DNA of 64,000 bases from Thermodesulfobacterium hveragerdense DSM 12571. GTDB lineage: Bacteria > Desulfobacterota > Thermodesulfobacteria > Thermodesulfobacteriales > Thermodesulfobacteriaceae. The notes below the pieces were generated by a model that saw only the letters and a program-made list of their open reading frames with translations, did no database searches and had not been told where the DNA came from. A program made the translations under genes and the position numbers. The stretch is taken from assembly GCF_000423845.1 (NCBI RefSeq), contig NZ_AUIT01000008.1, positions 1-64,000 on the forward strand, read 5' to 3'. This document shows, one piece after another, positions 5,315-63,411 of the stretch; the first letter of the stretch is position 1; the number at the start of each line of letters is the position of its first letter.

Positions 5315-6077
5315 CAAAGTCAATCTCCTCTGCTAAAAGAGTAGGGCCCTCTATACAAAGGTGTACATAATTTCCGTTTTTAAGTGGAATTACACAGCCT
5401 TTACAAAAACCTGTACCACAAGAAAGAAAGGTTTCCATCGTAAGATAGGCCTTTACTCCAAAATGCTGGGCTATTTGAGCTATGGCTTTTAACATAGGTA
5501 AAGGACCACAGGCAAGCACGTCTACCTTATTCTTTTCTAAATACTTCCTCAAAGGTTCGGTAATCAACCCTTTATAACCCTGTGACCCGTCTTCTGTGGC
5601 TATTTCTACCTCTGTTTCGATATCTTCTAAAAAAGGATAACAAACCAGGTCTTCTGCTGTACGAGCCCCATAAAAAATTTTCTTGGGTAGCTCATAGGTA
5701 TGGATTTTTCTTTTTATGCTTTCTAAAAGATAGATAAACCCTGCTATTCCTATGCCTCCTGCACAGATCACATAGTTCTCAAGTTTAGGAAAGGGTTTCC
5801 CAAGGGGGCCTAAAAACTCGATCTTACTTCCTGGTTGAACCAAAGATAAAGCTTTGGTACCTTTTCCTACCACCTGATAAAGCACATAAAAACTATTCTT
5901 TTTTACATCATGAATGGTAAAAGGCCTGGGAATAAGAGGGTCAATCCTTTCGTTAATCTTGATCTTGACAAATTGACCTGGGTTAAAACTAAATATTATA
6001 TCTAAATCTGTTTTTACCCTCAAAAGATAAACGTTGTGAGAAAGAGGAAGGTTTTTTATAACCTCGCCTTGATACAT
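5301..6077 (-). CDS. pyrK: Dihydroorotate dehydrogenase, electron-transfer subunit
   Basis: PyrK passes electrons from the PyrD FMN to NAD+ through FAD and a [2Fe-2S] cluster. The product (258 residues) has the ferredoxin-reductase layout. An FAD-binding barrel contains RPFTIHDV. An NAD-binding part contains CAGGIGIAGFIYL. A C-terminal cysteine cluster C-x4-C-x2-C-x(n)-C is seen as SCGTGFCKGC and HLCIEGP (about residues 218-243). The stop overlaps the start of pyrD, and the ykgJ-like gene ends one base before its ATG, so translation is probably coupled along this block. Confidence 0.93.
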   Translation of the reverse strand: MYQGEVIKNLPLSHNVYLLRVKTDLDIIFSFNPGQFVKIKINERIDPLIPRPFTIHDVKKNSFYVLYQVVGKGTKALSLVQPGSKIEFLGPLGKPFPKLENYVICAGGIGIAGFIYLLESIKRKIHTYELPKKIFYGARTAEDLVCYPFLEDIETEVEIATEDGSQGYKGLITEPLRKYLEKNKVDVLACGPLPMLKAIAQIAQHFGVKAYLTMETFLSCGTGFCKGCVIPLKNGNYVHLCIEGPTLLAEEIDFDAIS

Positions 6078-6078
6078 G

Positions 6079-6888
6079 TTAAAAAATTTCCTCTAAAAAA
6101 GAAAGAGATTTTTTTTCTCTAAATTTTTCTCTTAGTTCTTGTAATACATCTCTAAAACTTTTTTCTTCTGTTATAGGGGTTCGGTAAAATGTACCTACCC
6201 AGGATCTAAGTTCTTTTTCCTCAGGGAGGACGGGCAACTCGTCTACATCTACGTTAGAAAGAAGATAAGGAGGCACTTCTTCTACTTGTTCACTCTTATA
6301 ATCCTTTAAAAACTTTAAAAGATCAAAAAGATTGCCATAAAGCCCACCAATGTCTATGTTTTCAGCTAACTGTAAAGCAATGGTCCCAACATAAAACAAA
6401 AAAGGAGGTAAAGATGCCTCTCCCTGTTCACAGCTTTTGGTTGAAGCCATTATCCTGCACATAAGCGGACGATAAGGATAAACCATACAAAGTCCTTTTT
6501 CGTCTAAAAAAGGACATGTAGACAACTGAGGGGGATAATCCTCTAAAGGAGGCTCTGTACCTTGAAGATAGCAAAGAAGGGTCTGGTTATGGGTAATCTT
6601 TGGCCTTGGATAACTCTGAAGATATGAGACCCTGGTTAAAACCTCAGGACTAACCCTTTCTAACAGATAGTAAGCCTCTAAAGAAGTAGTATAAATACGG
6701 TCTGTGCAACAGAGGTTACAACCTGGTTTACAAAAAAGATCCCAGGCTTGATAGGTGTTTTCTAAGTGTTCATAAAGTTTTTGCAATAATTCTAATTTGG
6801 TAGCAACCTCAAAATCTAAGAAGACGTTAATTTTAGAACCTCCTAACCATTTGATTTTTAATTTTAAACAGATTTTGTTAAAATACAA
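6079..6888 (-). CDS. YkgJ-like cysteine-cluster protein
   Basis: The protein has the cysteine pattern of the YkgJ/zinc-or-iron-chelating family: CKPGCNLCC near the N-terminus, then CPFLDEKGLCMVYPYRPLMCR in the middle. These cysteines probably bind a metal or an iron-sulfur cluster; the role in the cell is unknown. The coordinates give the longest open frame, from a TTG at 6888. That start is doubtful because the TTG itself forms part of a likely promoter. A strong TAGGAGG site lies instead just before an ATT codon at 6831, which would give about 250 residues. It is the first gene of the pyrK-pyrD-hslO-lapA block. Confidence 0.7.
   Translation of the reverse strand: MYFNKICLKLKIKWLGGSKINVFLDFEVATKLELLQKLYEHLENTYQAWDLFCKPGCNLCCTDRIYTTSLEAYYLLERVSPEVLTRVSYLQSYPRPKITHNQTLLCYLQGTEPPLEDYPPQLSTCPFLDEKGLCMVYPYRPLMCRIMASTKSCEQGEASLPPFLFYVGTIALQLAENIDIGGLYGNLFDLLKFLKDYKSEQVEEVPPYLLSNVDVDELPVLPEEKELRSWVGTFYRTPITEEKSFRDVLQELREKFREKKSLSFLEEIF
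6861..6888 (-). promoter_or_regulatory. Candidate promoter of the ykgJ-pyrKD-hslO block
   Basis: On the minus strand TTGTAT (6888-6883) and TAAAAT (6866-6861) are 16 bases apart. Transcription would begin near 6854, upstream of the AGGAGG site but downstream of the TTG start codon of the longest frame. Confidence 0.35.
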
Positions 6889-24653: not shown

Positions 24654-25805
24654 TTAAAAAGCCAGATTTAGCCTTACCCCAAAGATATGACCTTTATTTT
24701 CTGGGTTTTCCTCGTCCTTAAGCCTATCTTTCATCCATTGCCAGTCAAAGGTGAGATGTGAGGCAAAGAGTTTTTCTTTTTCGTATATAGGAACAGAAAG
24801 ATAGGCTTCTACAGCTTGTGTATGCTTTAGTTCTTCATTTTTTGAGGGAGCTTTAAGGTAAGTGTAGCCTAACCCTAATTCAACGGTTTTTACACCAAAG
24901 GGTTTAAACTTATAGTTCAACCCTAAGGAATACATGCTTTTGTAGTCTATTTCTGCGTCATCATCCTGAAAACCAGCTCTGGCAAAAACCCCAAGGGTAT
25001 CTTTGATTATATCCTGGTCTATAGACACACCCCAGCCCTTTAAAGCTTTTTTCTTTTCTGCTTCCCAATCAGGGAAACGCTTGTTGGTAGTAAAGGCAAA
25101 AACTCTATAATTTCCTTCTCCAAAAGAGGTTTCTAATTTATACCCTACCTGGGCAGCATAGTAATTATAAGTTTTCTTGTCAAACCTTGAGTCCTCATTC
25201 TCGTCGGTTTTACTTTGCATCCCTACTAAGGCTAAGCTAAAAGGCCCTTTAGACCACTCTACAGCTACTCCATAGTCATAACTTATAAGGTTAGCCAACG
25301 GGTTGTTTACAAAGGCCTCATTCATAAACTGTGTCAATTCATCGTTTGCGAACCGGTTTTGGTCGATGAAAGCGGTTGCGTCTATGATTCCCAAGGTTGT
25401 TTTAAGGGTTGAGTTGCCTGGCAGATCAAAGGTTCTTGCGTACCAAAGTTCTTGCAAATGGTCTCTTGAACGGTTGTTGATGTTGTGAAGATCATCCCTG
25501 AGATCATCTGAATTAGGAGAGAGGGTAAAAGGACTAACCTTTTTTAATCCATTTCCTTTGGCAAAACTACCTCTTACTGAAAACTCGTCCTTTTCTGTAG
25601 GTTTAAACGTAACCCTTGCGTCAAGAACCACAGACCCCTTTTCCTCGTCCTTAAAATCCCCTTTTCTCTTATCTAACCCTTGGTAAACCCCTGTCAAGTT
25701 TGCCTCGATAGAGAGTTTTTCGTTTACCTCATAGGCTTTAACCTTAACAGGAACTCCGAAAACCAAAAGGCCTAAGGATAAGGTCGTAAAAACCTTTCTT
25801 ACCAT
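24654..25805 (-). CDS. OprB-like outer-membrane porin
   Basis: A 383-residue outer-membrane beta-barrel. A signal peptide (about residues 1-24, ending VKA) is followed by alternating beta-strand patterns and a terminal LNLAF with the final Phe used in barrel assembly. The segments LQELWYARTF and FIDQNRFANDELTQFMNEAFVNNP resemble OprB-type carbohydrate porins. The pore substrate is not known. The gene stands alone with a GGGGGG-rich ribosome-binding region and a hairpin terminator. It runs in the same direction as the iron operon upstream. Confidence 0.8.
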   Translation of the reverse strand: MVRKVFTTLSLGLLVFGVPVKVKAYEVNEKLSIEANLTGVYQGLDKRKGDFKDEEKGSVVLDARVTFKPTEKDEFSVRGSFAKGNGLKKVSPFTLSPNSDDLRDDLHNINNRSRDHLQELWYARTFDLPGNSTLKTTLGIIDATAFIDQNRFANDELTQFMNEAFVNNPLANLISYDYGVAVEWSKGPFSLALVGMQSKTDENEDSRFDKKTYNYYAAQVGYKLETSFGEGNYRVFAFTTNKRFPDWEAEKKKALKGWGVSIDQDIIKDTLGVFARAGFQDDDAEIDYKSMYSLGLNYKFKPFGVKTVELGLGYTYLKAPSKNEELKHTQAVEAYLSVPIYEKEKLFASHLTFDWQWMKDRLKDEENPENKGHIFGVRLNLAF

Positions 25806-25905: not shown

Positions 25906-27667
25906 TTATAAAATTAACCTTGCAAGATGATAAACTACAAAAGAGACTATCCAGGCAACGATAAAGGTAACCAAAATTATCTGACAAACAAACTTAAAAG
26001 ATCCTGCTTCTATCCTCACTGTTGCTGCATAAACCATGCATGGAAAATATAGGAGTACAAAAACCATAAAAGAAAGAGCTGAAGCAGGGGTAAACCTATT
26101 TTGAAGTTCAGATAAAATACCTGTACCTTCTTCTGATACCTCTGCCGTGAGGGTAACGATCCTAAAAGTAGAGACCAGATTGCCCCCTACTTCTTTTGTT
26201 TTTTCAGCAAAAAGCAAAATCAATTCTTTAAGGTCTTCTTTAAAAGAAAGTTCCTCTTGAGGATTATCTTCAACATCTCCTCCATAAATTTGTGCCATCG
26301 TTGAAACTATAACCTCTTTGGCAGGGAACCCTGCCAAAAGACTGGCACTACTTGCCCAATCTCCAAAACCTAAGGGTTTAAAAATAGGGGCTATCAGATG
26401 TCCTGTTTTGCCTAAGATTGAGTCTTCAGGTTTTTCAGGCTTCCAGGGAAGGTTTAGTGCCATCCATATGAGAACATTAAAGGCCAAAACCAAAGTCCCT
26501 GCTTTGATCACAAAATGTTTTAGCTTAAGCCAGGTGTGAATGGCAAGATTTTTAAAAGTAGGGATACGATAAGGCGGTAGTTCCATGATAAAAGGTCCGC
26601 TAACTCCTTTAAAATAGGTTTTGTGAAGAATAACAGCAAGGCTAAGAGCTACAGCTATACCCAACAGATAGAGGAAAAGAAGCACCGCTGCTGAGTGAGT
26701 TGCAAAAAAAGCTGCCACAAACAAAGCATAAACTGGCAGTCTTGCTCCACAAGACATAAAAGGAACTATAAACATCGTAAGTTTTCTCTCATGCTCCTGT
26801 TCTAAAGTTCTACAAGCATATACAGACGAAACATTACAACCAAACCCCATAAGAAGAGGGATAAAAGCTTTTCCCTGAAGCCCAAAGTATCTCATGATTC
26901 TATCCATAAGAAAAGCCGCCCTTGCCATATAACCGGTAGCTTCAAGAAAGGTTATCATAAACATGATCATCCCGATTATAGGAACAAAAGACAACACAGT
27001 CCCTACTCCTACCCAAATCCCATCCACTATAAGAGAATTTAACCAATCTGTTACCCCTACAAAGGAAAGCCCTGCCTCTATCCATCTTCTAAAGACCTCA
27101 TTTACAGCTTTGTCCAAAAAATCTATGTAAGGGTTAGCTACATCAAACGCAACCTTAAAAGAAAACCACATCACCAAAAGAAAAAGAGGTATCCCTAAAA
27201 TCCTGTTTAAAACTATCTTGTCTATCTTTTCTGTAAGGGTCTCTCGTCTGATTTCTGGGCGTTGAAGTACCATTTTGGCAATCCCGGTTGCTAAACCATA
27301 CCTGACATCAAGCAAGTAATCGCTAAAATCTACCTCGTGGACTGTCTTAATGTGCTTGAGGATGTTTTCTTTTTCTCTTTTATCAAGCTCAACATCCAAC
27401 TTTCTTAAAAGCTCCTCTTCTCCTTCTAACAACTTAAAAACCACAGCCAAACTTACCCTATCTAAATCCGGTTTTACCACTTTTATACGGGATAAAATCG
27501 TTTTTACTAAATCCTCTAACTCCTCTCCATAAGGGAGCTTAGTTGGCACGATTGCCTTTTCAAAGAGGCCAGTTGCCAACTTGAAGATTAGCCTTGGCAA
27601 TGGCGTTTATCAAACTTGATTTACCTGTGTTAGGATTACCAACCACTGCTATCTTTATTTCTTTCAT
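25906..27667 (-). pseudogene. feoB: FeoB iron(II) transporter with most of the G domain deleted
   Basis: FeoB normally joins an N-terminal GTPase to an iron(II)-transporting membrane domain. Here an ATG at 27667 opens a short frame with the first GTPase motif GNPNTGKSS and then QVGNWP, but it meets a TGA at 27562-27560. The sequence continues in another frame (25906-27600, from a TTG) with LPYGEELEDL, the linker after the G domain, and a complete membrane part: GFGCNVSSVYACRTLEQE, MSCGARLPVY, PCMVYAATVR. Motifs G2-G5, roughly 130 residues, are missing. The start overlaps feoA as ATGA. Likely a deletion mutant; an assembly collapse is the alternative. Confidence 0.8.
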
Positions 27668-27894
27668 GCTATCACCTCCACCTCGATCAACTCTGCCTCT
27701 TTTTTTCTGATAGAAAGATGATATCCTCGCACTTCTACGTCTACAGGGTCAGCAAGAGGAGCAATCCTAACTATTTGAAGCTCAACCCCAGGGGTTATAC
27801 CCATTTCCTTTAGGCGTTGTTTTACCGATGGGGGGCCTTCAACAGAAACTACCTTAACTCTCTTCCCTAAATTAACCTTAGAAAGTTTTGGCAT
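27664..27894 (-). CDS. feoA: FeoA iron-transport accessory protein
   Basis: A 76-residue SH3-like Feo[45 protein letters not shown] fits the family throughout. FeoA works with FeoB in iron(II) uptake, probably at its cytoplasmic face. It has a strong AAGGAGGTG site and overlaps feoB by four bases. It is the third FeoA-type domain in this operon and the only plain one. Confidence 0.9.
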
Positions 27895-27910: not shown

Positions 27911-28585
27911 TTAGGATTTGTTTATCAACCCTAACCAATCCCTTATTCTTTGTTCCATGCTAAGAAAAATGTCTACTATTTCTGGGTCAAACTGAGAACC
28001 TGAGCCTTTTTTAAGTTCCTCCAAAGCCTCTTCAAAACTTAAAGGATTTCTGTAGGGGCGCTTGTCTGTCATCGCAGAAAAGGCATCAGCTACAGCTATT
28101 ATCCTTGCTCCAAGAGGTATTTCCCGTTCTTTAAGACCTACGGGATAACCCTTTCCATCCCATCTTTCATGATGATAAAGCACCATCTCTATAACCCCTC
28201 CTTTACCTTGAAAAATTCTGATATCCTTAAGATAATCTGCCCCAATCACTGGATGTTTCTTAACTATCTTCCACTCCTGCTGTGTTAAAGGACCTGGTTT
28301 TTTCAAGATTTCATCAGGTAGAGCAAACTTTCCGATATCATGGAGATGTCCTGCTATGTGAATAAGGTCTGCCAGTTTAGGAGGAAGCCCTAAGGCTAAA
28401 GCAACCATGTAGCTTAACACCGCTACTTTTTCTGAGTGGTATTTGGTATACAGGTCTTTACTTTCCATAAGATTGGTCAAGACTTCGCAGATTTGATGAA
28501 CAGTAACCATCAAAGGCTGACATTTTTCTATCTGACAACATAATTCTACGATTTCAGGGTCATAAAGGCATTGTTTGGCCAACAT
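27911..28585 (-). CDS. HD-GYP-domain c-di-GMP phosphodiesterase
   Basis: A 224-residue protein made almost wholly of an HD-GYP domain. The metal site HLHDIGK is near residues 81-87, HHERWDGKGYP near 140-150, and ADAFSAMTDKRPYR follows. HD-GYP proteins break c-di-GMP down to GMP. A short N-terminal region has four cysteines (CLYDPEIVELCCQIEKC) that might sense metal or redox state; this is inference. It begins 5 bases after the FeoA-GGDEF gene and is followed by feoA, so it belongs to the iron operon. Confidence 0.88.
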   Translation of the reverse strand: MLAKQCLYDPEIVELCCQIEKCQPLMVTVHQICEVLTNLMESKDLYTKYHSEKVAVLSYMVALALGLPPKLADLIHIAGHLHDIGKFALPDEILKKPGPLTQQEWKIVKKHPVIGADYLKDIRIFQGKGGVIEMVLYHHERWDGKGYPVGLKEREIPLGARIIAVADAFSAMTDKRPYRNPLSFEEALEELKKGSGSQFDPEIVDIFLSMEQRIRDWLGLINKS

Positions 28586-28590
28586 CTTCC

Positions 28591-29349
28591 CTACTCCTCA
28601 CATAGAAAAACCAAATTTTTTCCAGATTTTTTGGCCTGATAAAGGGCCTTATCAGTCATCTCAAAGAGTAGTTCTAAAGGTCTAACCGGAGGGGCTCCAC
28701 AAACCCCGAGACTTAGAGTAACTCCTAAGGTCTGTCCTTGCCACCAGACTATATGATCAGCCACAGCCCTTCTTATACGTTCTGCTATCAATTGTCCTAT
28801 CTCAACGGTTGTGTTCTTCAAAAATAAAACAAACTCCTCTCCACCCCATCTAACAGCCAAGTCTGTTTTTCTTAAGTTCCTTTTGATAACTTGAGCAATG
28901 TCCTTTAAAACCTTATCTCCTGCCTGGTGCCCAAAGGTGTCGTTGAATCTTTTAAAATCATCTATATCAGCCAAAACCAAGCAATACGGTGGGTTGGCTA
29001 ACTCTTTCTTTAAGAGATTTTCAGCAAACTGTCTTGTTAGAAGACCTGTCAACTGGTCAACCCTTGCAAAATCTCTCAACATCTCATAGGAGGTTTTCAA
29101 TGGTCTAACCAAGATATGCTTTAGGAATGCTTTATCTAAAGCCACTCTACTTTCGTTAAACCTGACTACTACCCTATCTCCAGAAGGATCCTGATGGATA
29201 ATTTCTACCAAAGTTCCCTCCTGAACGCCAATGCTTTTTAATCTCAGGCTTAAGTCAAAGGAAAAAATACATATCACCTCAGCCAATTCTCCTAATGGAA
29301 AGTTAGACAGGGGATAAACGGTAAATTTTTGACATTTTCGTATACTCAT
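28591..29349 (-). CDS. FeoA-domain diguanylate cyclase fusion
   Basis: The 252-residue protein starts with a FeoA-like SH3 domain (about residues 12-82: PLGELAEVI, RLKSIGVQEGTLVEII, then RVALDKAFLKHILV). It continues with a GGDEF domain (about 90-250). The active loop reads RWGGEEFVL, a normal GGEEF variant. RKTD five residues earlier forms the inhibitory RxxD site. DQLTGLLTRQ and DIDDFKRFNDTFGHQAGD are intact, so it should make c-di-GMP. The FeoA part suggests control by iron or by FeoB. A strong GGAGG site precedes the ATG. It lies between a Cys-rich FeoA and an HD-GYP gene. Confidence 0.87.
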   Translation of the reverse strand: MSIRKCQKFTVYPLSNFPLGELAEVICIFSFDLSLRLKSIGVQEGTLVEIIHQDPSGDRVVVRFNESRVALDKAFLKHILVRPLKTSYEMLRDFARVDQLTGLLTRQFAENLLKKELANPPYCLVLADIDDFKRFNDTFGHQAGDKVLKDIAQVIKRNLRKTDLAVRWGGEEFVLFLKNTTVEIGQLIAERIRRAVADHIVWWQGQTLGVTLSLGVCGAPPVRPLELLFEMTDKALYQAKKSGKNLVFLCEE

Positions 29350-29369: not shown

Positions 29370-29702
29370 CTATGATTTATGGTTTGTTTTAAGAACCATT
29401 ATTTTCATCGCCAGTTTTCGACTTAGCGCGATAAAAGTTTCTTCTACCCTAAGAAGAATAGGATTACCCGGTCTGTTTTGTTTTACCTCTACTACCTGCC
29501 CGGGTTTAAGACCCATAGACCCAATCTTTTGGTTAACAACATCTTTTTTACCTTTAAGACAACACTCAACACCGCCGCAACCTCTACAGGCATACCAAGA
29601 ACCAACCTTTAAATCTGAAGAAAGAGAATAGATTTTGCCAAGCTCACCTTCTCTAAGAAGAGCTAAAGGGATTAATCCCTTTTCTTTCAAACCCTCAACC
29701 AT
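29370..29702 (-). CDS. FeoA-domain protein with cysteine-rich insert
   Basis: A 110-residue FeoA relative. The usual pattern is interrupted between the first strands (LALLREGELGKIYSL) and the rest (VNQKIGSMGLKPGQVVEVKQ) by a loop with CRGCGGVECC near residues 39-48. Four cysteines in ten residues could bind iron, zinc or a cluster, so it may be a metal sensor or carrier. The start follows GGGAGGT. It lies 20 bases before the FeoA-GGDEF gene. Function is inferred from the domain and place. Confidence 0.78.
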   Translation of the reverse strand: MVEGLKEKGLIPLALLREGELGKIYSLSSDLKVGSWYACRGCGGVECCLKGKKDVVNQKIGSMGLKPGQVVEVKQNRPGNPILLRVEETFIALSRKLAMKIMVLKTNHKS

Positions 29703-29760: not shown

Positions 29761-30039
29761 TTAGGCATCCACCTTCAACTGGTTAATAAGTTTTTTGATC
29801 CTACAAAGCCCTTTGGACCGGCAAAAGATACATTTTTTCTTGCCGCAACTTTTAGCCAGCTTAACAAGTTCATGAGATACACATCCTGTTATTATGATTA
29901 TGTAATCGGCGGATGAGAAGATATAAGAGGCTTGAGGAGACCATCTGTTGACAAACCTGAGTTTCAGCTTGTTTTCTTTAGCATATTCTTCTAACTGAGG
30001 TTTAAACCTATCGTGTCCTCCTACAACCGCAACTGTCAT
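29761..30039 (-). CDS. DUF2325 protein
   Basis: A 92-residue protein of the DUF2325 family: TVAVVGGHDRFKPQLEEYAKEN at the start, then YIIIITGCVSHELVKLAKS and a cysteine-rich tail with KKKCIFCRSKGLC. The fold is likely a small alpha/beta domain; the cysteines may bind metal. The function of the family is unknown. It is the first gene of the iron operon, 58 bases before the Cys-rich FeoA, and follows the candidate promoter and operator. Confidence 0.75.
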   Translation of the reverse strand: MTVAVVGGHDRFKPQLEEYAKENKLKLRFVNRWSPQASYIFSSADYIIIITGCVSHELVKLAKSCGKKKCIFCRSKGLCRIKKLINQLKVDA

Positions 30040-30090: not shown

Positions 30091-30109
30091 ATTGAAATTA
30101 AATCTCAAT
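30091..30109. promoter_or_regulatory. Fur/PerR-like 9-1-9 palindrome between the iron operon and peroxiredoxin
   Basis: ATTGAAATTAAATCTCAAT is a 19-base inverted repeat of the 9-1-9 form, with 8 of 9 pairs matching. That is the architecture of Fur-family operators, and it lies just downstream of the iron operon promoter. The base sequence differs from the classical Fur box, so the regulator is a guess. Confidence 0.4.
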
Positions 30110-61633: not shown

Positions 61634-62266
61634 ATGAAAGTAGTGGTATTAGCCGGAGGAAAAGGAGAAAGGATAGGAGGAGATAAACCTCTAAAAACCT
61701 TTTTAGGGAAACCTTTAGCCTACTGGGTGTTTAACCTCGCTAAAAAGATTAGTCTGCCTGTATATTTTTCAGTAAAAAACACAGGCCAAGCCCAAAAAAT
61801 ATCAGAGGTTTTACAAAGGCTAAACGTTCCTCTACAAACGATCGATTTTATCTTGGACAAACATCCTGAGATAGAAGGACCTATTTCTGGTATATGGTCA
61901 GGGGTTTCTGAGTTTAAAGATGAGGCTGTCCTTTTCTTAGCGATAGACCAGCCTCTGGTAGAGCCTGAGTTTCTCAACCGGTTAATCTCCCTCTCGAAGG
62001 TCTTTTGCCATGGTTTTGTGATCCTTTCTAAGGGAGAAGACAAAATCAAACCCTTTCCAGGTGTTTATCCTGGATGGTTAAACGAAGAGATAGAAATTTT
62101 TATAAAAATTTCTCCTAAGTATAGCCTTTTTAGGCTTTTCAATTATCTTATGAATAAGGGAAGGGTTTTAACCTTAGAGGACTCTTATATAAACCCCAGG
62201 AATTTTTTTAATCTTAACACTTTGGAAGACATCAAGGAAGCGGAGAAATGTTTTTACCTGAGATAG
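61634..62266 (+). CDS. mobA: Molybdenum cofactor guanylyltransferase
   Basis: MobA adds GMP to molybdopterin for molybdenum (or tungsten) enzymes. The 210-residue protein starts KVVVLAGGKGERIGGDKPL, the GTP-binding loop, and shows PISGIWSGV and the metal-binding FLAIDQPLVEPEFL. FNLNTLEDIKEAE near the end is typical. It starts four bases after sbcC and overlaps the response-regulator gene by 19 bases. Confidence 0.9.
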   Translation: MKVVVLAGGKGERIGGDKPLKTFLGKPLAYWVFNLAKKISLPVYFSVKNTGQAQKISEVLQRLNVPLQTIDFILDKHPEIEGPISGIWSGVSEFKDEAVLFLAIDQPLVEPEFLNRLISLSKVFCHGFVILSKGEDKIKPFPGVYPGWLNEEIEIFIKISPKYSLFRLFNYLMNKGRVLTLEDSYINPRNFFNLNTLEDIKEAEKCFYLR

Positions 62267-63411
62267 AGGACCCCAAAAACATCAGAGTTTTTCTGGTAGA
62301 CGATGACGATCAGATAAGGACTTCTCTTTCTGAGGTACTAAGTTTAGAGGGATTTCAGGTTTTTTCTGCCAAGAACGGCCAGGAGTTTTTGGCTAAACTT
62401 GAGAATATAGACCCAGACATTGCACTTATAGATTACTTGCTCCCAGGAGGGTTAGACGGGCTCTCCCTTTGCAAAATCATAAAAAACGATTATAAAACCT
62501 TTGACATAGGGGTGATCATCATCACAGGAGTAAACGACTTAGAAACCAGGATTAACTGTCTTGCCGCAGGGGCAGACGACCTCTTAACCAAACCGATCTT
62601 TATCCCAGAACTTTTTGTAAGAATTAAAACCTTAAGCAAAAACAAAAAATACCGGGAGTTTCTCAAAAACTACCAGCATAACCTTGAAAAAGAAGTCATC
62701 CAAAAAACCAGAGAACTACAAAAAATCTATTTAGGCCTAAGCGAAGCCCAGGAAGAGATAAGAAAGCTTTCATTAGAAATCATCCAAAGACTTGCCAAGG
62801 CAGCTGAATACAGAGACGAACATACCGGGGCTCATATCCACAGGATAAGTTTTTACTGTACAAAAATTGCAGATGCCCTAAACCTTTCCAAAGACCAGAT
62901 AGAAATTCTTCAGTATGCCTCTCCACTTCATGACATAGGAAAATTAGGTATCCCAGATAAAATCTTACTTAAACCTGGACCTCTTACTCAAAAAGAATGG
63001 GAAATAATGAAACTCCATACGGTAATTGGAGCCCAGATCTTAGAAGGTTCTAACTTAAAATACCTGAAAGCTGCCCAGAAAATTGCCCTTTACCATCACG
63101 AAAGATGGGACGGCAGAGGCTATCCCTTTGGTCTGAAGGGTAATAAAATCCCTCTTTTTGCCAGGATCGTTGCCATCGCCGACGTGTTTGATGCCCTTAC
63201 CTCAGATAGACCCTACCGAAAAGCCTTACCCTATGATTTAGCCTTTCAGGTGATCAAAAACGAAAAGGGAACGCGATTTGATCCAGAACTGGTAGATATC
63301 TTCCTTAAAATCAAGCCAGAACTTGTAGAGATTAAAGTATTGTTTCAGGATGAAGAAATACCTCATCTTTTTAAACTTTACAAGAAACTTGAAGAAGAGG
63401 AAGAATATTAA
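62248..63411 (+). CDS. Response regulator with HD-GYP phosphodiesterase output
   Basis: A 387-residue two-domain protein. The receiver (about 10-130) starts RVFLVDDDDQIRTSL and has phospho-acceptor Asp62 in IALIDYLLPGG; the conserved Lys is in LTKPIFIPE. A helical linker joins it to an HD-GYP domain (about 180-370) with SPLHDIGKLGIPDKIL and HHERWDGRGYP. It should break down c-di-GMP in response to a sensor kinase not seen here (RpfG-like). It overlaps mobA by 19 bases and converges on the DUF72 gene. Confidence 0.92.
   Translation: MFLPEIEDPKNIRVFLVDDDDQIRTSLSEVLSLEGFQVFSAKNGQEFLAKLENIDPDIALIDYLLPGGLDGLSLCKIIKNDYKTFDIGVIIITGVNDLETRINCLAAGADDLLTKPIFIPELFVRIKTLSKNKKYREFLKNYQHNLEKEVIQKTRELQKIYLGLSEAQEEIRKLSLEIIQRLAKAAEYRDEHTGAHIHRISFYCTKIADALNLSKDQIEILQYASPLHDIGKLGIPDKILLKPGPLTQKEWEIMKLHTVIGAQILEGSNLKYLKAAQKIALYHHERWDGRGYPFGLKGNKIPLFARIVAIADVFDALTSDRPYRKALPYDLAFQVIKNEKGTRFDPELVDIFLKIKPELVEIKVLFQDEEIPHLFKLYKKLEEEEEY

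Follow-up and report, generated by a model that had tools for sequence, protein, structure and literature searches.

The locus lies in the window, i.e., the whole 64,000-nucleotide stretch of the Thermodesulfobacterium hveragerdense DSM 12571 genome that was analysed, and is transcribed from the minus strand in the order DUF2325, Cys-rich FeoA, FeoA-GGDEF, HD-GYP, FeoA, feoB (interrupted), and OprB porin. From upstream to downstream, the features are:

30092..30108, no strand assigned: candidate operator TTGAAATTAAATCTCAA, 17 bp, a near-perfect palindrome ahead of the operon
29761..30039, minus strand: DUF2325 protein, 92 aa (Pfam PF10087, 56.2 bits, cut-off 33.6)
29370..29702, minus strand: free-standing FeoA, 110 aa, with the Cys-rich insert CRGCGGVECC (Pfam FeoA, 50.1 bits)
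28591..29349, minus strand: FeoA-GGDEF fusion, 252 aa (Pfam, alignments, AlphaFold, and Foldseek)
27911..28585, minus strand: predicted HD-GYP c-di-GMP phosphodiesterase, 224 aa (HD_5, 141.7 bits)
27664..27894, minus strand: feoA, 76 aa, intact (Pfam FeoA, 76.3 bits)
25906..27667, minus strand: feoB, interrupted (alignment to the intact feoB of relatives)
24654..25805, minus strand: OprB-family porin (Pfam OprB, 44.4 bits)

The first-pass annotation had the coordinates and layout of the central pair right, with five bases between the stop of the FeoA-GGDEF gene and the start of the HD-GYP gene. Two upstream members of the operon were absent from it: the Cys-rich FeoA (29370-29702), whose insert varies among relatives in the alignment, and the DUF2325 protein (29761-30039), which has a C-terminal CxxC..C cluster and whose gene opens the operon in relatives. 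At the other end, in Thermodesulfobacterium and Caldimicrobium, the conserved cluster finishes with the OprB porin gene, which adjoins feoB in relatives. Rfam gave no match of any kind in the window, indicating that no c-di-GMP riboswitch is present there. Elsewhere in the window, what reads as a transposase-like fragment (37-1173) overlaps the shortened end of an HdrA-like gene on the opposite strand, as if an insertion element had interrupted that gene, and a second HD-GYP protein, by reading of the receiver plus HD-GYP type, is encoded at 62248-63411.

The fusion protein was confirmed from its sequence and predicted fold as a FeoA domain joined to a diguanylate cyclase with intact active site and I-site, for which c-di-GMP synthesis is predicted. 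The FeoA domain (residues 13-83) is connected by a short linker to the cyclase (residues 95-245), and both Pfam profiles score far above their cut-offs (PF04023, 47.7 bits vs. 23; PF00990, 137.5 bits vs. 23.8). Thus, the FeoA assignment, which the first-pass annotation had staked on profile tests of the N-terminal domain, held, and the SH3-like fold was matched as well. Indeed, an HMM search with this domain found the solved FeoA 3e19 (E 8e-4), and the AlphaFold model of residues 1-84 (pLDDT 86.7) gave FeoA proteins as its nine best Foldseek matches, among the solved structures 3e19, 2k4y, and 7r7b, followed by SH3 domains of DtxR-type metal repressors. The second half of the fusion matches PleD, DgcZ, SiaD, and other cyclases. 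The description of the GGDEF domain as apparently active is likewise borne out by its motifs: GGEEF at residue 169, the metal/GTP residues DIDDFKRFND at 128, and RKTD at 160, an RxxD I-site located five residues ahead of GGEEF, a regulatory element that is not found in all GGDEF members. GGEEF or GGDEF is present in all relatives except G009, which has GGEEI, and T. thermophilum, in which a frameshift intervenes; RKxD is kept in all active-type copies in the alignment, and, G009 again excepted, active site, I-site, and linker are conserved down to 44% identity. The fusion is under purifying selection, with omega (dN/dS) of about 0.07-0.13. In the alignment of relatives, the fused FeoA domain has no invariant Cys or His, its invariant polar residues being acidic or Tyr. 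A single-protein search of viral contigs returned no relative.

The neighbouring HD-GYP protein matches PmGH (4mcw, E 7.5e-36; PMC4159591), with which it shares the catalytic domain, the HD dyad, HHExxDGxGYP with its GYP triad, and seven of eight metal ligands; residues equivalent to PmGH D183, H189, H221, D222, K225, H250, H276, H277, and D305 are all kept. Unlike PmGH, which has a GAF domain, it is stand-alone, and it carries Tyr (Y46) in place of E185 and Ser in place of D308. Across its HD-GYP relatives, Tyr or Phe occupies the PmGH 185 position where the tri-iron subgroup has Glu or Asp, which places the protein in the Y/F subgroup, expected to hold a di-nuclear centre (PMC4159591). The Ser is invariant across the HD-GYP relatives here, and calls for caution because the D308A substitution impaired PmGH activity (PMC4159591). 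A further difference from PmGH is a short N-terminal extension (residues 1-30) with an invariant Cys22 and a Cys6 present in seven of the eight sequences, a possible metal or redox site.

A search for the FeoA-GGDEF architecture and its neighbours, proposed as a check in the first-pass annotation, revealed the same gene order in eight genomes of three genera. These represent eight of the 30 genomes searched in the family and eight of the 41 of the class: five Thermodesulfobacterium (including the window genome), one Caldimicrobium MAG (G029), and two of a further genus. In all eight, fusion and HD-GYP genes are adjacent, at 44-98% identity. The HD-GYP gene lies directly 3' of the fusion in every locus read, with DUF2325 and the Cys-rich FeoA alongside, and the pair always sits among DUF2325/feoA genes; feoB is also present in all but G002, and G004 has its small genes arranged differently. 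The recurrence of this order in eight genomes of three genera is more than expected by chance. Within the same genus, G012 has a cluster of Cys-poor FeoA, FeoA, FeoB (split in two frames), and porin that lacks the pair, suggesting that the pair is a regulatory add-on to the feo cluster.

Four copies in relatives are damaged or unusual. The fusion of T. thermophilum (L030 4774-5531) is frameshifted just ahead of GGEEF and that of the Caldimicrobium MAG after it, and G010 has a frameshift near the HD-GYP C-terminus; these may be real lesions or homopolymer sequencing errors. In G009, the 3' part of the fusion, with its GGEEI, has diverged (L031 4797-5555; 78-86% vs. 97% nucleotide identity) and DUF2325 contains an in-frame stop (L031 around 5900-6250), a combination that suggests recombination.

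Among 395 sampled genomes of the phylum, one further fusion was found, in G181, a member of another family (FeoA 33.6 bits, GGDEF 45.4 bits). Its DNDEF motif and lost metal residues indicate that it is probably inactive. Its operon, which is divergent from fur, has the order DUF2325 - small protein - FeoA-GGDEF - Cys-rich FeoA, and no HD-GYP gene adjoins the fusion. No other genome searched in the class of G181 carries the fusion, and neither that class nor the phylum sample yielded a further active one. Matches in G216, G281, and G402 are not cyclases; they proved to be plain FeoA or FeoA ending DtxR- or Fur-type proteins. Fur and FeoA were also seen in one protein at L086 1342-2169 (Caldimicrobium MAG) and L049 961-1734, a further case in which FeoA is appended to an iron regulator.

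The statement that feoA and feoB follow the pair was correct for feoA, which is intact, but the feoB of the window genome is a broken copy. Aligned with T. thermophilum feoB (2145 nt), it shows a single gap, a clean 383-bp deletion at 27566/27567 that begins 101 nt after the ATG, spans codons 34 to 162, and has about 1 nt of microhomology at its junction. The deletion takes out the greater part of the G domain and, its length not being a multiple of 3, also causes a frameshift: the first frame (start 27667) runs for 35 codons and terminates at 27560, early in the G domain, and the frame that is left (25906-27600) retains the helical, Gate, and C-terminal parts. FeoB is intact (714-717 aa) in six relatives read, and the source genome has another feoB, distant and intact, on contig C15. 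An ancient loss was rejected, since the residual tail evolves like intact genes (omega 0.16-0.19 vs. 0.18), which points to a recent deletion or an assembly fault; by its sequence, the copy is either a pseudogene or an artefact of assembly. With the G domain missing from the assembly, any loop between iron and c-di-GMP may be damaged in this genome.

Upstream of the operon, TTGAAATTAAATCTCAA (30092-30108) lies between DUF2325 and a divergent peroxiredoxin gene. It resembles a Fur-like box and is considered a candidate operator, agreeing at 13 of 16 positions with WTGAAAATNATTTTCAW, the dFUR box inferred for deltaproteobacterial feo operons (PMC545781). The site is identical in T. thermophilum and G009, both G029 and G002 carry the perfect palindrome TTGAAATTCAATTTCAA ahead of the operon, the corresponding site of G004 is TTGAAATTCAAATTCAA, and TTGAAATTTAATTTCAA, also a perfect palindrome, precedes the plain feo operon of G012. 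These sites are upstream of the feo cluster regardless of the gene on the other side; in G010, the short sequence preceding DUF2325 yielded no such site. Against shuffled sequences, the window site gave P 0.12, not significant alone, and the others ranged from 0.003 (G029) to 0.59 (G014), so that the argument for an operator is its conservation in place. A genome-wide scan allowing two mismatches returned fewer sites than the reversed control, and no regulon was inferred.

Taken together, the adjacency of the pair, purifying selection, the feo context, and the conserved palindrome in front of most copies indicate that the link was selected rather than arising by chance. Our preferred reading, to which we assign a probability of roughly 0.48, is that of an iron-repressed ferrous-iron uptake operon with its own c-di-GMP turnover pair, comprising a cyclase docked through its FeoA domain and an iron-dependent HD-GYP phosphodiesterase. 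The architecture, together with the conservation of the catalytic residues, the gene order, and the Fur-like operator, can be read directly from the sequences, and from these features we infer the regulatory steps. Under iron limitation, a Fur-type repressor would release the operator, and cyclase and HD-GYP protein would be made together with Feo. The FeoA domain would most likely dock the cyclase on the Feo machinery, i.e., on the G domain of FeoB, the known FeoA partner; FeoA is an SH3-like protein and binding to this domain (NFeoB) is nucleotide-dependent (PMC8980893). Cyclase dimerisation or activity would then track the state of the transporter, with product feedback via the I-site, and the HD-GYP protein would clear the signal once cytoplasmic iron returns, the HD-GYP enzymes solved so far containing di- or tri-iron centres (PMC4159591). 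As a net result, c-di-GMP would be high while iron is short and would drop as iron enters. The more specific part of this scheme, in which FeoA couples the cyclase to the FeoB GTPase, the nucleotide or iron state of the transporter is read as c-di-GMP, and an iron-dependent phosphodiesterase closes the loop, is put forward as a tentative possibility. Several observations weigh against the preferred reading: the fusion is sparse in the class (eight of 41 genomes), copies are damaged (the frameshifts of T. thermophilum and the Caldimicrobium MAG, the GGEEI of G009, and the feoB deletion in the window), feoB does not adjoin the pair in G002, and the operator falls short of significance when the window is taken by itself and gathered no Fur regulon in the genome scan.

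That the state of iron uptake is turned into a c-di-GMP signal, as first suggested for this locus, is favoured by the conserved cyclase/phosphodiesterase pair in a feo operon and by the Fur-like operator, but the accompanying idea that FeoA senses Fe(II) itself finds no support in the sequence. Direct binding of Fe(II) by the FeoA domain to switch the cyclase, the mechanism envisaged in the first-pass annotation, could draw on the FeoA-like SH3 domains of metal-dependent repressors (the DtxR/IdeR/ScaR matches), on the zinc in one FeoA crystal (3mhx), and on the FeoA proteins fused or paired with Fur in the family. Nevertheless, we consider it quite improbable: the documented role of FeoA is protein-protein contact (PMC8980893), and the acidic and Tyr residues that are invariant in the fused domain include no Cys or His, which makes docking on FeoB likelier than Fe(II) sensing.

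A different division of labour, in which iron is sensed by the HD-GYP protein of the pair, the cyclase works constitutively after its synthesis, and FeoA either has no role beyond that of a tether or is a vestige, appears unlikely to us. The phosphodiesterase would in that case be active only with a filled iron centre, and c-di-GMP would report cytoplasmic iron. The iron centres of solved HD-GYP enzymes, the predicted di-nuclear, Y/F type of the protein here (Y46 replacing E185), and the N-terminal extension with its invariant Cys22 and nearly invariant Cys6 all fit such a sensor, but other metals, e.g., Mn, can partly fill such centres (PMC4159591), and a FeoA domain kept on the cyclase by purifying selection would be left unexplained. 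It is also doubtful, to a degree similar to direct Fe(II) sensing, that the pair is nothing more than a regular cyclase and phosphodiesterase whose place in the operon serves iron-dependent expression alone, with FeoA as a generic dimerisation module. Many relatives lack the fusion, and in Desulfovibrio, Fur boxes are predicted before separate gdp (GGDEF) and hdd (HD) genes, with no mention of a FeoA fusion (PMC545781); yet a FeoA domain that sits in a feo operon and recurs beside fur in the distant family of G181 is hardly due to chance.

Regarding the output of the signal, the suggestion that it might steer motility through a nearby hook operon was not borne out, since T. thermophilum, which is nearly identical, was the sole relative with FlgE next to the operon in the stretches read. 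The source genome encodes four PilZ receptors. One of them, a fusion of PilZ to an orotate-phosphoribosyltransferase-like domain (PilZ-PyrE), is encoded directly after fur-feoA in ten Thermodesulfobacterium genomes:

L039 2858-4577 (G000, contig C16; also L067-L076): fur - feoA - PilZ-PyrE, with the RxxxR and [DN]xSxxG c-di-GMP motifs

This arrangement, a predicted c-di-GMP receptor on a pyrimidine enzyme beside an iron regulator, is a sign of a second, independent link between iron and c-di-GMP in the genus.

Parts of the proposed circuit have counterparts in known systems. SisP of Stenotrophomonas maltophilia similarly converts ferrous iron into altered c-di-GMP and swimming, but it belongs to the PAS/PAC-EAL phosphodiesterases and itself binds Fe(II), and no FeoA domain or feo operon is described for it (PMC9600515). 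DgcZ, a zinc-sensing CZB-GGDEF protein (reviewed in PMC8846402), also bears a metal-related sensory domain on a GGDEF cyclase; however, CZB binds Zn by three His and one Cys, whereas the fused FeoA lacks ligands of this kind and is a domain from a transport system. FeoAB fusions, e.g., that of Bacteroides fragilis, tether the FeoA SH3-like domain to a GTP-using partner as well, but this partner is the FeoB G domain instead of a diguanylate cyclase (PMC8980893). A regulatory parallel is the predicted Fur regulon of metal-reducing deltaproteobacteria, in which a similar 17-bp palindrome precedes feo, porin, GGDEF, and HD genes, and Geobacter sulfurreducens has a Fur box, an OprB porin, and then feoAB (PMC545781). 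In these bacteria, gdp and hdd are separate single-gene loci, unlike the single operon described here, in which a FeoA-fused cyclase is combined with HD-GYP and feo genes. Given the predicted Fur boxes before gdp and hdd in Desulfovibrio, iron control of c-di-GMP genes is not new in the group.

The view of FeoA as an unusual sensor domain for cyclases is in line with a 2022 review of c-di-GMP sensing, whose main text does not include Feo (PMC8846402). No publication describing FeoA-GGDEF was found in the literature searched, and those retrieved with FeoA, GGDEF, and iron concern other subjects according to their titles and abstracts; public domain databases may list the architecture automatically. 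Since c-di-GMP control by ferrous iron (SisP) and a metal-sensing cyclase (DgcZ) are already known, the novelty was considered to lie in the sensor or adaptor domain, FeoA, joined to an enzyme of known type, and in the operon that houses them.

Links from iron to biofilm formation and motility via c-di-GMP are long established, mostly through transcription or unidentified sensors. The operon offers a concrete, small, and probably thermostable system in which to ask whether a second messenger receives direct input from a metal transporter, and the FeoA-cyclase fusion provides a new approach to the function of FeoA, which is debated. If the docking of the cyclase on FeoB is true, an iron transporter would act as the sensor of a second-messenger cyclase, and some thermophilic sulfate reducers may have a direct connection between the import of iron and a signal that governs lifestyle.
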